From: a virus
DNA: 52,116 nucleotides
Virus record (IMG/VR): IMGVR_UViG_3300006622_000009
Span: 1 to 52,116 of that record
Direction: 5' to 3' (one strand)
Below are positions 1,238 through 52,116 of this stretch, piece by piece (positions within the stretch are counted from its first letter, which is position 1; each line of letters starts with the position of its first letter). The translations under genes and the position numbers were made by a program. The notes beneath the pieces are model-generated. The model was not told where the DNA came from. It was given only the letters and a program-made list of their open reading frames with translations, and ran no database searches.

Positions 1238-1465
1238 ATGGATATAAGAAAGATATCCATAGGACCTGACTATAAGTCGGGTGCTATGCATTATATAGTG
1301 GGTCAAAACATTCTTAATGACAGCCACTCGATACATTTGATTCAGCACGATAAAGATAGAGATAGTATAAAGGTGTGGATTGAACGCAATGATGAGATAT
1401 TTCTTTGGAAAGAGTTCAATGCAAACATGCCGATATCTGTCGAATACAATATCAACTTTGAATGA
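1238..1465 (+). CDS. Conserved phage protein of unknown function (75 aa)
   Basis: A compact alpha/beta protein starting MDIRKISIGPDYKSGAMHYI and ending NMPISVEYNINFE. The pattern IGPDYK..AMHYIVGQ plus WKEFN.NMP.S.EYN is familiar from Bacteroidetes podoviruses just upstream of the packaging genes, but it has no known function. No signal peptide, membrane segment or metal-binding motif is visible. Its stop overlaps the next start by 4 nt, giving tight coupling with the GroES-like gene. Confidence 0.75.
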   Translation: MDIRKISIGPDYKSGAMHYIVGQNILNDSHSIHLIQHDKDRDSIKVWIERNDEIFLWKEFNANMPISVEYNINFE

Positions 1466-1995
1466 AGTCTCCTTTTTATTTTATCGTTGAGCCTGTCGGT
1501 GGTAGGCGTTATGATAATGTGAAAAAGATTGGGGATATAGACTTCATAACAAGCACTTCACAAGAAGACCACAAAGCATCTAATCGTTATGCTAAAGTTG
1601 TAGAGTGTCCATCTGGATACGATGGCCCTATTCAAAAGGGCGACACACTTCTTGTTCACCACAACGTATTTAAGGTTTACTACGACATGTATGGGAAGGA
1701 AAGAAGTGGATTTAGTTTCTTAAAAGACAAAACGTTTTTCCTAGAGCCCAATCAATTCTTTATGTATAAAAACAAAGATGGTTGGCATACGATAGGTGAC
1801 TTTTGTTTTGTGAAACCAGATGAAGATTTAATTGGTTATATTAGATACAGCAATGAATTTCTTGAGGATTCTGGTGTGAATGTTGGAGATAGAATATGTT
1901 TTACTCCAGAGAGTGAATATGAATTTAATGTTGATGGTGAGATTCTTTATAGGATGAAGTCTAATGATATAGCTCTTGTTGTAGATGGAAGTTAG
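1462..1995 (+). CDS. GroES-like co-chaperonin-fold protein
   Basis: 177 residues. The C-terminal part matches the end of GroES: VGDRICF (141-147), a charged loop, DGE (158-160), then RMKSNDIALVVD (164-175), the counterpart of the VGD.V.F...DGEE...M...DILAV pattern. The middle also has a barrel-like GDTLLVHHNVF (60-70), so two GroES-like barrels in tandem are possible. GroES caps the GroEL cavity through a mobile loop; the likeliest loop here is the divergent N-terminal half. T4 gp31 is a known phage case where a GroES analogue helps fold the capsid protein. The gene sits just upstream of the terminase and portal genes, and this phage also carries a GroEL at 51.7 kb. Fold inference only. Confidence 0.55.
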   Translation: MKSPFYFIVEPVGGRRYDNVKKIGDIDFITSTSQEDHKASNRYAKVVECPSGYDGPIQKGDTLLVHHNVFKVYYDMYGKERSGFSFLKDKTFFLEPNQFFMYKNKDGWHTIGDFCFVKPDEDLIGYIRYSNEFLEDSGVNVGDRICFTPESEYEFNVDGEILYRMKSNDIALVVDGS

Positions 1996-42657: not shown

Positions 42658-43269
42658 TTACTTATTATTAAATGAAATTAAATTGTCTTTGGCTTCCTCT
42701 AATGTAGCCCCAAGGTAGCCACCCTCGAGGTCATGATGTTCGTAATATCCTTTCTTGAATTTACCCATATAATTTTCGTAGTCTTCAGCTAATAACACAA
42801 TATCGTCATCGCCCTCAACCATTTCCCATGGTGCAATGTCCCACTCGAAAACATTTGTTACCTCTCCGTTTGTCACATCGAACTCCATACCATACCCTTG
42901 CTCTTCTTCCCAGAAGTAAGTGAAGCTTGGTATGTCCTCCATTAGCATGGACAGTATCTCATCATTCGGAGGAGCCCACGCTGTTGTGAAGGTATACAGT
43001 CGGTCCTCAGAATTGTTATCATAAGCACCCCACTTTGTACCCCACTCACGATTAGCCCACTCGTACCAGTCGGTACAGCCATACTTCTCCATGAGAATAT
43101 CATATTGTTGCTGAGATATTGTCTCAGGAATACGCTGAGGACTGGTTGTCCCCTGCAAGTCATCAGGCATTGGCTTGTAGTATCTACATAGCCCTACCTT
43201 AGCAATCTCTGCTAGCTTCTCGGCATACTCTTCTTCAACCGAGATAGAATTATATACATGATTTGGCAT
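42658..43269 (-). CDS. Api92-like (ferredoxin-fold) phage protein
   Basis: 203 residues. MPNHVYNSISVEE at the start, CRYYKPMPDDL, then YGCTDWYEWANREWGTKW and AYDNNSED, plus FTTAWAPPNDEILSML, make the signature of the Api92-like phage family, named after an Acyrthosiphon pisum phage protein. The fold is thought to be ferredoxin-like; the function is unknown. Rich in Trp, Tyr and acidic residues. It belongs to the accessory block. Leader TAAATAGATATG-like. Confidence 0.75.
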   Translation of the reverse strand: MPNHVYNSISVEEEYAEKLAEIAKVGLCRYYKPMPDDLQGTTSPQRIPETISQQQYDILMEKYGCTDWYEWANREWGTKWGAYDNNSEDRLYTFTTAWAPPNDEILSMLMEDIPSFTYFWEEEQGYGMEFDVTNGEVTNVFEWDIAPWEMVEGDDDIVLLAEDYENYMGKFKKGYYEHHDLEGGYLGATLEEAKDNLISFNNK

Positions 43270-43857: not shown

Positions 43858-43994
43858 TTTGTTATCAGTCCATGCTCGGCTGATTCCACAAGGCGTTTTG
43901 CTTCGTGGTAGTCACTGGTGAGTACAACCTTGTTTGGTCTTTCACCTCCGTAGTACAGTTCAACCCTGTACTTTTGTCTATTCGAGAACAACAT
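43821..43994 (-). CDS. Hypothetical protein (57 aa)
   Basis: MLFSNRQKYRVELYYGGERP, then NKVVLTSDYHEAKRLVESAE, ending LITNLITNEILEHET. A strand-strand-helix layout. The start at 43994 overlaps the amidotransferase gene by 17 nt; an ATG at 44018 would add 8 residues. Its C-terminal LITNEILE is shared with the next gene. It might be co-expressed with the amidoligase operon. Confidence 0.55.
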   Translation of the reverse strand: MLFSNRQKYRVELYYGGERPNKVVLTSDYHEAKRLVESAEHGLITNLITNEILEHET

Positions 43995-45027
43995 TCTTCT
44001 CGTATATATAATCCTCACAACTCATGCAGTACTTAGCATCTTGATAGTATGGGTCAAAGTGAAGTGTGTCCCCACAAGAACACCTTTCTTCTGTAACCTT
44101 CGGCTCGTATGTAGCTGTTCCAAAGTCATCATCAAACTCATCATCTTCCCATGCGTCCCAACTATTCCATCTGTCGTAGCTTGGGAGTACGTTCTGAGTG
44201 TATGCCTCGTGGTATACTCCAGTGTCTTCAGTGTCATTGAAGTATATCCATGCAGTCATGAAGTTCTCGTTCTCCATTTCAATCTTAATCTTCTCTCGCT
44301 TGTACCAGTTGGGGTGTCCCTCAAGAATATCAAGCTGTGATAGTGTGTACTGGTCAACTAGAAATACATCAACCTCTACATTGAACCCCACACCCTTCTT
44401 GTTTAGTAGATAGGGTAGTCCAGTTATGACAAGTGGATACCTGTCTTTGGTGTAACCCCTGCCTACATAAGCTGAAGTGCGAAGGTATCTTGAGTAGTTT
44501 GAATAGTCTTTCTTTAGTGTACCATACACTGCAACAGGCACAAGGTCAAGCACATTCTTCTTGCTGTAATATATTCCATTACGCTGCACCCAATCCTGTT
44601 CGTTGTACAGCTCGAATGTTTTGTTCTTCAGGTCTGCTGTTACAAACCTACAATCATTCATCTCAAGCACATCTCTCCAATGTTTCTTGGGTATGTCCTT
44701 GAGTATCCGAGCCATAGCCTCTGTGTCTGTCGTGTCTGCATCTCCAAGATTGTAGATAGTTCCGTTCTGAAATAGAATCTCATTCTTGTTGATGTTGAAC
44801 GGGTGGCAGTTTTCTCTTGACACTTTACCAACCGTTGCGTATCTGAAGTGGGCAATGAATGGTCTCTTTGTAAGTAGCACCTCGTATTCTGTGCTGTCAA
44901 AGTATTCAATGTTCCACTTGTCTAGCCAAAGAACACCCAATCCATGAGGGTTCTTAGCTGCTGAAGCAACCAAGGTGTCTTGCTTGATTACTTTATCGTT
45001 GTCTTGTTTTACAATAATTACACACAT
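43978..45027 (-). CDS. Class II glutamine amidotransferase-gamma-glutamylcyclotransferase fusion with zinc ribbon
   Basis: 349 residues in three parts. Residues 1-160 are an Ntn-type class II glutamine amidotransferase: Cys2 is the N-terminal nucleophile after Met removal, followed by KNPHGLG (25-31), AHFRYATVG (59-67) and CHPF (74-77). Residues 163-285 are a GGCT/AIG2-like fold: AVYGTLKK (166-173) and LDILEGHPNWYKRE with candidate catalytic Glu236. Residues 316-337 form a zinc ribbon (CSC, then CMSC). GATase II releases ammonia from glutamine; GGCT cleaves gamma-glutamyl-amines, making 5-oxoproline. It lies 3 nt after the amidoligase gene. Amidoligase, GATase II and GGCT genes are known to cluster in bacteria and phages, where they are predicted to make or break gamma-glutamyl-type amide bonds. 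The fusion order is unusual. Confidence 0.75.
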   Translation of the reverse strand: MCVIIVKQDNDKVIKQDTLVASAAKNPHGLGVLWLDKWNIEYFDSTEYEVLLTKRPFIAHFRYATVGKVSRENCHPFNINKNEILFQNGTIYNLGDADTTDTEAMARILKDIPKKHWRDVLEMNDCRFVTADLKNKTFELYNEQDWVQRNGIYYSKKNVLDLVPVAVYGTLKKDYSNYSRYLRTSAYVGRGYTKDRYPLVITGLPYLLNKKGVGFNVEVDVFLVDQYTLSQLDILEGHPNWYKREKIKIEMENENFMTAWIYFNDTEDTGVYHEAYTQNVLPSYDRWNSWDAWEDDEFDDDFGTATYEPKVTEERCSCGDTLHFDPYYQDAKYCMSCEDYIYEKNVVLE

Positions 45028-45030
45028 AAT

Positions 45031-46296
45031 TTAAAATATTTCTTCCTCTGTTTCTCGTTCTAAAAATTCATGTATAGTTGATGGCGTTTCATCATTAAGT
45101 AGATACTTTCTGAAGTCGTAAGACAAACGCTTGATGTAATCAACTTTCTCTCTGTCTTTGTACATACGCATAAGTATGTAGTCAATCTTCTCAAGTAGCT
45201 TGTCGTATGATTGCCTTGTTCGTATGCTGTGATACATGATTTTGTAAATCAAATCATAGCGTAACTTTAGCTGTCTTACATTCTTCACAGCACTTGGTAT
45301 TCGTATCTCAATGCCAAAGTCTTTGACATTGACTGGAGAATACTTTGTATTGTGTTCACGCACAAGCTTTTTGTTTCCACTACAATGCTCCTTGTTTAGT
45401 CTGTACCTGTACATTGAGTATAGTATAGCCATGTTACCTCTGACTTTGTTGAGTATGTCATAGCCACCCATTCCGTATACAGATATACAGATATGACCAC
45501 CACACTTTCTGTTCCATGCTGAATTGATGATAGACTTTGCATCGTCAAATAGTTCAAACACTTCGTTTCTGCCTTCACTTCTTGGGCTATCCAGTGGTAG
45601 TATGTTTGTGATAGCTTCAACCCCACATGAGCTGTCACTCTCGTAGCCTTTGAACAAAGTGTGAGAGCCTACATAATCTCCTCTATCGTTTGCCAATAAC
45701 CCATCGAAGTTTGTGAATTCAGTCTTCTCTATCTCAAATCCAATTCTCATTTCAGATGAGTATGAACTCAAAATAAAATCTGCTTCAGGTGATTCGTGAT
45801 ATGTACAGATATGCTCATCATCTTCTTGACTTGGCATCTCATCTTCATCATAGTAGTACTCCCCATCTTGTTCGCAATAAGTTGCATCATTATAATGAAC
45901 AGGCCCATCTACATCGTAGCACCACCTAGTATCTTCTACATGCATCCAATACCCTTCTGCTTGACCATACTCCACATACTCGTACTCATCAGGGTCTTCG
46001 GTATGAATATACCCCCCATCATACAGCTCACCTTTGTAATCAGTATGATAATACCATACGCGTGAGGACATACACTCCCAAGCATACTCATTCTCAACAT
46101 ACACTCCATCATATTCGCACCACGTCATGTGGTCATGCACATCGTCTTCGTGATACCATCTTCCAGTCTCCTCACATTGATACGCTTCTTCCTTTAGAAT
46201 GTACGCATCTAAGTAGTCAGCCCAAACACAATCGTCTCTCTCGTGCTCTTTGTCGTTTGGGTATGTAGTAACTAATTTTTCTTCAATCGTCTCCAT
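45031..46296 (-). CDS. Amidoligase-like (ATP-grasp/glutamine-synthetase-fold type) with Cys-rich repeat N-terminus
   Basis: 421 residues. The C-terminal catalytic part starts at residue 183: RIGFEIEKTE (metal-binding GFEIE, 186-190), ESDSSCGVEAITNILPL, and KCGGHICIS with Cys265/His268. This is the layout of the amidoligase_2 family, carboxylate-amine ligases with a glutamine-synthetase-like fold. Residues 1-182 carry repeated motifs, each with one Cys (C41, C60, C75, C126, C141, C164) beside Trp/Tyr and acidic residues, such as CEETGRWYHEDD and CEQDGEYYYDED, possibly a substrate- or metal-binding platform. First gene of an operon with its own promoter, followed by the amidotransferase-cyclotransferase fusion. 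The substrate is unknown; peptide, cell-wall or nucleotide modification are possible. Confidence 0.7.
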   Translation of the reverse strand: METIEEKLVTTYPNDKEHERDDCVWADYLDAYILKEEAYQCEETGRWYHEDDVHDHMTWCEYDGVYVENEYAWECMSSRVWYYHTDYKGELYDGGYIHTEDPDEYEYVEYGQAEGYWMHVEDTRWCYDVDGPVHYNDATYCEQDGEYYYDEDEMPSQEDDEHICTYHESPEADFILSSYSSEMRIGFEIEKTEFTNFDGLLANDRGDYVGSHTLFKGYESDSSCGVEAITNILPLDSPRSEGRNEVFELFDDAKSIINSAWNRKCGGHICISVYGMGGYDILNKVRGNMAILYSMYRYRLNKEHCSGNKKLVREHNTKYSPVNVKDFGIEIRIPSAVKNVRQLKLRYDLIYKIMYHSIRTRQSYDKLLEKIDYILMRMYKDREKVDYIKRLSYDFRKYLLNDETPSTIHEFLERETEEEIF

Positions 46297-46318
46297 GATT
46301 TAATTTAATTTAGTTTTA

Positions 46319-46350
46319 CAAATTTACAAATAATAAACATAATATGCAAA
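46319..46350 (-). promoter_or_regulatory. Leftward promoter TTTG-N20-TAAATTTG before the amidoligase operon
   Basis: On the minus strand, TTTG at 46350-46347, a 20-nt spacer and TAAATTTG at 46326-46319, 22 nt before the ATG at 46296. Full consensus match, placed in the only sizeable gap of this gene block. Confidence 0.75.
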
Positions 46351-51709: not shown

Positions 51710-52116
51710 ATGAATGAATTAAGTTATACACCAAAAGAACTTGTGTTCGACCAGGAGGGTCGTGACAAGTTGCTAAATGGAATCGAAAAGATTTCAGAAG
51801 CAGTTAAGAGTACACTCGGTCCACGAGGAAACACAGTACTTATAGAATCACAAAACCATACTAAAGGAGTTACCATTACAAAGGATGGTGTTACAGTAGC
51901 AAAGTCAATAGCACTTGAAGACCCTGTTGAGAATCTAGCTGTACGCATTATGAAGGATGCAGCAGACAGAACAGCAGTCAGTGCAGGTGACGGCACAACT
52001 ACAGCTATTGTTCTTACAGAAGCTATTATCAAAGCGGGTATGGAACATCTATCTTCAGGGGACGTTAGTGTCACAGAGGTAATCCGTGAGATTAACGATA
52101 TGTCTGATGAGATAGT
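51710..52116 (+). CDS. groEL: GroEL-type chaperonin (N-terminal part, cut by window edge)
   Basis: 135 codons are visible before the window ends; full GroEL is about 540. Group I chaperonin ATP-site motifs are intact: STLGPRGNTVLI (counterpart of TLGPKG), TITKDGVTVAKSIALED (the first catalytic Asp) and SAGDGTTTAIVL (the DGTTTA Asp). It folds proteins inside a double-ring cage, with a GroES cap. The sequence diverges from bacterial GroEL (MNELSYTPKELVFDQEGRDK start, AVRIMKDAADRTAVSAGD) and no groES precedes it. It has its own Bacteroidetes-type promoter, which argues for a phage gene. Phage GroELs are known but uncommon. A GroES-like partner is at 1462-1995. Confidence 0.9.
   Translation, partial: MNELSYTPKELVFDQEGRDKLLNGIEKISEAVKSTLGPRGNTVLIESQNHTKGVTITKDGVTVAKSIALEDPVENLAVRIMKDAADRTAVSAGDGTTTAIVLTEAIIKAGMEHLSSGDVSVTEVIREINDMSDEI

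Follow-up and report, generated by a model that had tools for sequence, protein, structure and literature searches.

A cassette of the phiEco32/RIO-1/LUZ24/CW02 type was reportedly described by Iyer in 2009 and Hardies in 2013, and the former is said to have proposed a role in superinfection exclusion that later papers repeated. The 'peptidoglycan modification cassette' consists of an amidoligase, a second ligase, an ATP-grasp protein, a GGCT-type cyclotransferase and a glutamine amidotransferase (GATase) (PMC5498523; PMC11945000), and is carried by phiEco32, RIO-1, LUZ24 and CW02 (PMC5498523). Amidoligase and GATase genes were also found in the OM43 phages MEP401 and MEP402 and in more than 30 related genomes (PMC10580990), and in UFV-P2 together with an ATP-grasp gene (PMC3890496). 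Our literature search found no direct biochemistry for any member of the cassette, and as far as that search showed its function has apparently been a proposal since 2009. Here we analysed a related gene pair in a 52 kb virus record (52,116 nucleotides, hereafter the window), which has its end type classed in IMG/VR and is possibly a fragment. A preliminary description of the pair considered it unusual for a phage to carry the genes as one short operon with this order of fused domains. This view did not hold, since the gene set has been published for many podoviruses (PMC5498523, PMC10580990, PMC3890496, PMC11945000), so that phage carriage of amidoligase, GATase and GGCT is not unusual, and at least 80 related viral loci also contain the GATase-GGCT fusion.

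Source virus, gene layout and promoter

The terminase encoded in the window was 73% identical to that of MW202828, a complete environmental podovirus genome, and about 46% identical to those of Flavobacterium phages of the elemo group; further matches were to Cellulophaga, Tenacibaculum and Maribacter phages. Based on these sequence matches, the source virus is assigned to the flavobacterial podoviruses. The amidoligase gene (45031-46296, minus strand) encodes a polypeptide of 421 amino acids and is followed after 3 nt (45028-45030), on the same strand, by a gene (43978-45027) encoding a 349-amino-acid fusion of a class II GATase domain, a GGCT domain and a four-cysteine tail. The coordinates and lengths of these adjacent reading frames agreed with the preliminary description, and all motifs that it had named were found in their places in both proteins. 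The pair is located with early replication and recombination genes, including those for an exonuclease, DnaA-C-like proteins and a primase/helicase.

A single full-consensus promoter had been suggested for both genes. A full consensus match is indeed present, but to the Bacteroidota-type and not the sigma-70 promoter: the site TTTG-N20-TAAATTTG (46319-46350, minus strand, read from 46350 to 46319), just upstream of the pair, matches the Bacteroidota consensus TTTG-N20-TAnnTTTG throughout, whereas a sigma-70 promoter was rejected, no full TTGACA/TATAAT match being found anywhere in the window. Six matches to the Bacteroidota consensus were observed on the minus strand of the window against 1.8 expected. 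The promoter 5' of the amidoligase gene was retained only in the closest relative (locus L005). Among relatives, a site of this type was present within 150 nt upstream of 36 of 84 fusion genes, compared with 1.8% of random positions, an enrichment that speaks for the promoter and also for a host in the Bacteroidota.

At the two ends of the window are chaperonin-like genes: a groEL-like frame (51710-52116, plus strand) is cut off at the right end, and close to the left end (1462-1995, plus strand) lies a frame for a GroES-like co-chaperonin (phrog_13932). As groES and groEL are adjacent in MW202828, these genes indicate that the phage clade encodes its own chaperonin.

Domains and active sites of the two proteins

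The catalytic domain of the amidoligase (about residues 181-415; 45052-45756, minus strand) contains a conserved motif series, with GFEIE at 186-190, SSCGVEA at 222-228 and CGGH at 265-268. The catalytic residues comprise GxExEK (186-191), E219-x-D-x-SCG-x-E227, the CGGH motif, R299, N308 and E330-x-R332, and 17 columns of the domain were invariant in 64 homologues. Pfam searches with the window protein gave no model match, PF12224 (Amidoligase_2) remaining without a hit at E 1; the PF12224 model did not match the 64 homologues at E 0.1, and searches of phrogs and of PDB sequences returned nothing usable. Profile comparison by hhalign with bona fide PF12224 members resulted in a match at 3.9e-7, compared with 0.01 or worse for the controls (20 column-shuffled alignments, one reversed and one unrelated family). 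The order and identity of the motifs GxExE, DxS, E, GxH, R, N and ExR are common to the amidoligase and bona fide PF12224 proteins; the second His of the PF12224 motif GxHxH is replaced by Thr or Cys in the window clade. Based on the controlled profile match and the shared order of active-site residues, the protein is classified by sequence as a divergent member of the PF12224 superfamily.

An AF2 model built from the alignment of 64 homologues (pLDDT 89) had a glutamine-synthetase (GS) fold; the alignments used for modelling drew on the window and on loci of viral contigs. Its best match among PDB structures was gamma-glutamylmethylamide synthetase (9qur, E 1.1e-5), with glutamine synthetases also matched; TM-scores to these enzymes of about 0.26 and identities of about 10-13% (Foldseek) place the likeness at the level of fold only. 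The best named viral structures (BFVD) were phage amidoligases. The amidoligase class given in the preliminary description is thus borne out by predicted fold, PF12224 profile match and the presence of GxExEK among the conserved catalytic motifs of the homologues.

The N-terminus of the amidoligase is a Cys/Trp/Tyr/Asp-rich beta-repeat module (residues 1-165; 45802-46296, minus strand) that was predicted confidently (pLDDT about 92-96 over residues 30-140), gave no Pfam match and, among the aligned loci, occurred only in relatives with the tandem arrangement. Between the window and L005 this module changes faster than the catalytic domain, which suggests a binding module under changing selection. 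A relationship to the CxxC-rich N-termini of the Marvin, MEP402 and MW202733 proteins, which look alike by eye, was rejected (hhalign 0.2, equalled by shuffled alignments).

In the fusion protein (AF2 model, pLDDT 85), residues 1-160 (44548-45027, minus strand) constitute a class II (Ntn) GATase domain with the nucleophile Cys2 and the motifs HFRYAT (60-65) and CHPF (74-77). Residues 163-270 (44218-44541, minus strand) form a GGACT/AIG2-type gamma-glutamylamine cyclotransferase domain with YGTLK (168-172) and the catalytic Glu236, and the C-terminal tail (43993-44097, minus strand) contains C316, C318, C334 and C337, a putative zinc ribbon. Pfam recognised the cyclotransferase as GGACT (PF06094; 1.6e-19, score 71 bits, cut-off 22.8), and GATase_6 matched the short GATase domain at 1.8e-5, just below its cut-off. 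The best structural matches of the cyclotransferase domain were human and mouse GGACT (1vkb/3jub, E 2e-9 to 1e-8), with Glu236 aligned to Glu82 of the human enzyme (Gln in the E82Q mutant, 3jud). The GATase domain matched the Ntn fold of GlmS (3ooj, E about 1e-4) and PurF (1ao0, E 3.5e-3).

C2, H60-F61-R62, H75-P76-F77, N88-G89 and D101 were kept in all 85 viral loci examined, and C2, R62, N88-G89 and D101 are what we take to be the counterparts of the GlmS glutamine-site residues. Cys2 was part of one of the two search patterns used to collect the loci, a partial selection bias, and six loci retrieved by the other pattern alone keep it; Glu236 lay outside the patterns and was retained in 83 of the 83 loci with a GGCT domain. 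Each tail cysteine was conserved in at least 90% of 46 homologues, and paired Cys motifs occurred in 79 of 85 loci. The class II GATase and GGCT/AIG2-like cyclotransferase proposed at the outset are therefore supported by predicted fold and by conserved residues. The preliminary description had named fold mismatch and residue loss as what would count against it; models of both proteins matched amidoligase, Ntn-amidotransferase and GGCT folds, and Cys2 and Glu236 persisted as given above. We regard the enzyme families of both proteins, as assigned, as almost certain.

Linkage of the genes in other viral loci

A scan of viral contigs yielded 230 relatives, and 85 loci were examined. In 78 of these an amidoligase gene preceded the GATase gene on the same strand, with a spacing from overlap to about 4500 nt, and most of the seven others lay near contig ends. 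Comparative genomics thus bears out the operon-like layout and the conserved adjacency that had been put forward as a check on it. Most of the 85 loci represent one phage lineage, so the 78 linked loci are not 78 independent events. Nearly contiguous genes (1-27 nt apart) were found in the window and in six loci (L005, L006, L011, L012, L014 and L051). GATase and GGCT were fused in 83 loci; the two non-fused loci, MEP402 and the human gut phage L004, lack the GGCT domain.

Pairings in unrelated phages are independent of this lineage. They include a canonical amidoligase with the fusion in C75C1, amidoligase with GATase in MEP402, Marvin, Salgado and MW202733, amidoligase with GGCT in Bacillus phage 055SW001 and Geobacillus phage GR1 (no GATase annotated nearby), and the full cassette in CW02 and Vibrio phage 1.293.O. 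That the ligase is accompanied by GATase, GGCT or both would be consistent with two modes of action on a single bond type. The second COOH-NH2 ligase (PF14395) was detected neither in the window nor in 26 relatives by a search that was positive in CW02 and Vibrio 1.293.O, and the same holds for ATP-grasp (models PF08443 and PF02655), which was found in the control phages. Since Pfam misses even the window amidoligase, a highly diverged ligase or ATP-grasp protein of this clade could be missed.

Occurrence of the fusion in bacterial chromosomes was considered and rejected. The sole full-length fused match on a genome contig (L097, a Cytophagales MAG) carries the phage's neighbouring genes and was therefore regarded as belonging to a phage; almost all other such matches covered the cyclotransferase part alone, which in L103 is a separate gene. 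A conserved protein of about 219 amino acids (L029:1263-1922; homologues in 60 loci) is encoded directly 5' of the amidoligase in most relatives with the spaced layout. This protein, not seen in the neighbourhood of the window pair, could be an extra partner. The region 42658-43269 of the window gave a weak Api92-like ferredoxin-fold match (PF18406, E 3.6e-4), and in L006 and L097 genes for homologous proteins follow the fusion at a short distance.

Proposed chemistry and comparison with known systems

The locus combines a carboxylate-amine ligase of GS fold with intact class II GATase and GGACT-type active sites in conserved linkage, as judged by sequence, conservation and predicted fold. The ligase would use ATP to activate the gamma-carboxylate of glutamate, or an equivalent group, and join it to an amine. 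Hydrolysis of glutamine or a gamma-glutamyl amide by the GATase domain would supply ammonia or free an acceptor, and the GGCT domain would excise gamma-glutamyl groups as 5-oxoproline; their fusion suggests that both probably act on one substrate class. Gamma-glutamyl amide chemistry by the pair is likely. That such a bond is built and then edited, as first suggested, is also the best reading here, the nearest solved relatives of the cyclotransferase being gamma-glutamylamine cyclotransferases. The most likely target would be host peptidoglycan or a precursor of it, at the stem peptide that contains D-isoglutamate, with the envelope changed during infection. On balance we favour the view that this flavobacterial podovirus carries a two-gene module for gamma-glutamyl amides, which is a streamlined and fused form of the cassette and is perhaps directed at this stem peptide. 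Taken separately, peptidoglycan is a tentative choice of target and superinfection exclusion a doubtful purpose; that the pair modifies host molecules or helps to evade defence, as raised earlier, is likewise something we infer. The location among early replication and recombination genes counts against the favoured explanation, and if the PF14395 ligase and ATP-grasp protein are essential for peptidoglycan chemistry, the reduced set may do something else.

Alternatively, the pair could serve small-molecule metabolism, with free amines (polyamines, methylamine) gamma-glutamylated and the products recycled for nitrogen supply or amine detoxification during infection, much as gamma-glutamylmethylamide synthetase or the Puu pathway does. 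Among solved structures this synthetase fits the fold of the ligase best, and the closest cyclotransferase is GGACT, which is specific for gamma-glutamylamines; however, the former likeness is common to all glutamine synthetases, and the surroundings of the pair yielded no recognisable oxidase, dehydrogenase or transporter as a partner. We consider this explanation unlikely. We give similarly little credence to ammonia delivery, in which the amidoligase would use ammonia from the GATase to amidate a carboxylate (MurT/GatD- or LtsA-like, on peptidoglycan D-iGlu or mDAP) and GGCT would edit by-products only. A GATase without GGCT domain accompanies the ligase in MEP402, L004, Salgado and Marvin, and MurT-GatD provides a precedent (PMC3267633); against this, 055SW001 and GR1 combine the amidoligase with GGCT, and the fusion joins GATase to GGCT and not to the ligase. 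There is a slim chance that the fusion and the repeat-bearing amidoligase form a self-contained system adding and removing a gamma-glutamyl-type group on a new Bacteroidota host target (protein or envelope precursor), with chemistry unlike that of the gammaproteobacterial cassette. GGACT acts on gamma-glutamyl-epsilon-lysine isopeptides, and the predicted N-terminal repeat module might bind a protein, but no tag peptide or proteolysis partner was seen, and we judge it improbable that the ligase adds gamma-glutamyl or isopeptide groups to host proteins for the fusion to take off. DNA or nucleotide hypermodification with amide-linked base adducts is highly improbable, for despite the surrounding replication and recombination genes no hydroxymethylase, base kinase, pyrophosphorylase, QueC or TET-like gene occurred among the scanned window proteins, which represented part of the ORFs of a possibly fragmentary record.

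If the peptidoglycan hypothesis is true, the pair would represent a phage-encoded system for stem-peptide remodelling in aquatic Bacteroidota. As a minimal two-protein version of the cassette with fused editing activities, it should be simple to reconstitute in vitro. Outside phages, the amidoligase resembles gamma-glutamylmethylamide synthetase and glutamine synthetase in its core fold (Foldseek) and differs in its N-terminal region, and the cyclotransferase domain shares fold, YGTL motif and catalytic Glu with human GGACT (3jub), a stand-alone enzyme. Among phages, MEP402/MEP401, mycobacteriophage Marvin and Arthrobacter phage Salgado likewise have an amidoligase followed directly by a GATase, but no GGCT domain was detected on their GATase proteins. 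Marvin gp105 (L093:3836-5197), annotated as a glutamine amidotransferase domain protein, aligns with the amidoligases MEP402 gp06 and MW202733, and the GATase of Marvin is gp106; by sequence gp105 is probably misannotated, an error carried through the Marvin-like phages. C75C1 (OQ984151) has a GATase-GGCT fusion of about 41% identity with an amidoligase upstream on the same strand; unlike in the window, the amidoligase is a canonical PF12224 protein (3.5e-30), the Cys tail is missing and 852 nt separate the genes. MW202828 shares gene order, amidoligase (33-37% identity) and fusion (44-50%) with the window, and differs in a longer, distinct amidoligase N-terminus and a gap of 58 nt.

Like the cassette of phiEco32, RIO-1, LUZ24 and CW02, the window has amidoligase, GATase and GGCT together in the early region of a podovirus. 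In contrast to that cassette, a single Cys-tailed protein combines GATase and GGCT, and the amidoligase is beyond Pfam detection and bears an N-terminal repeat module. The window pair is a streamlined, fused variant of the known phage cassette and very probably the same functional system. New are the apparent loss of the cassette's ATP-grasp protein and second ligase in the window clade, the beta-repeat module at the amidoligase N-terminus, and a GATase-GGCT-Cys-tail fusion that is the norm in an uncultivated clade.
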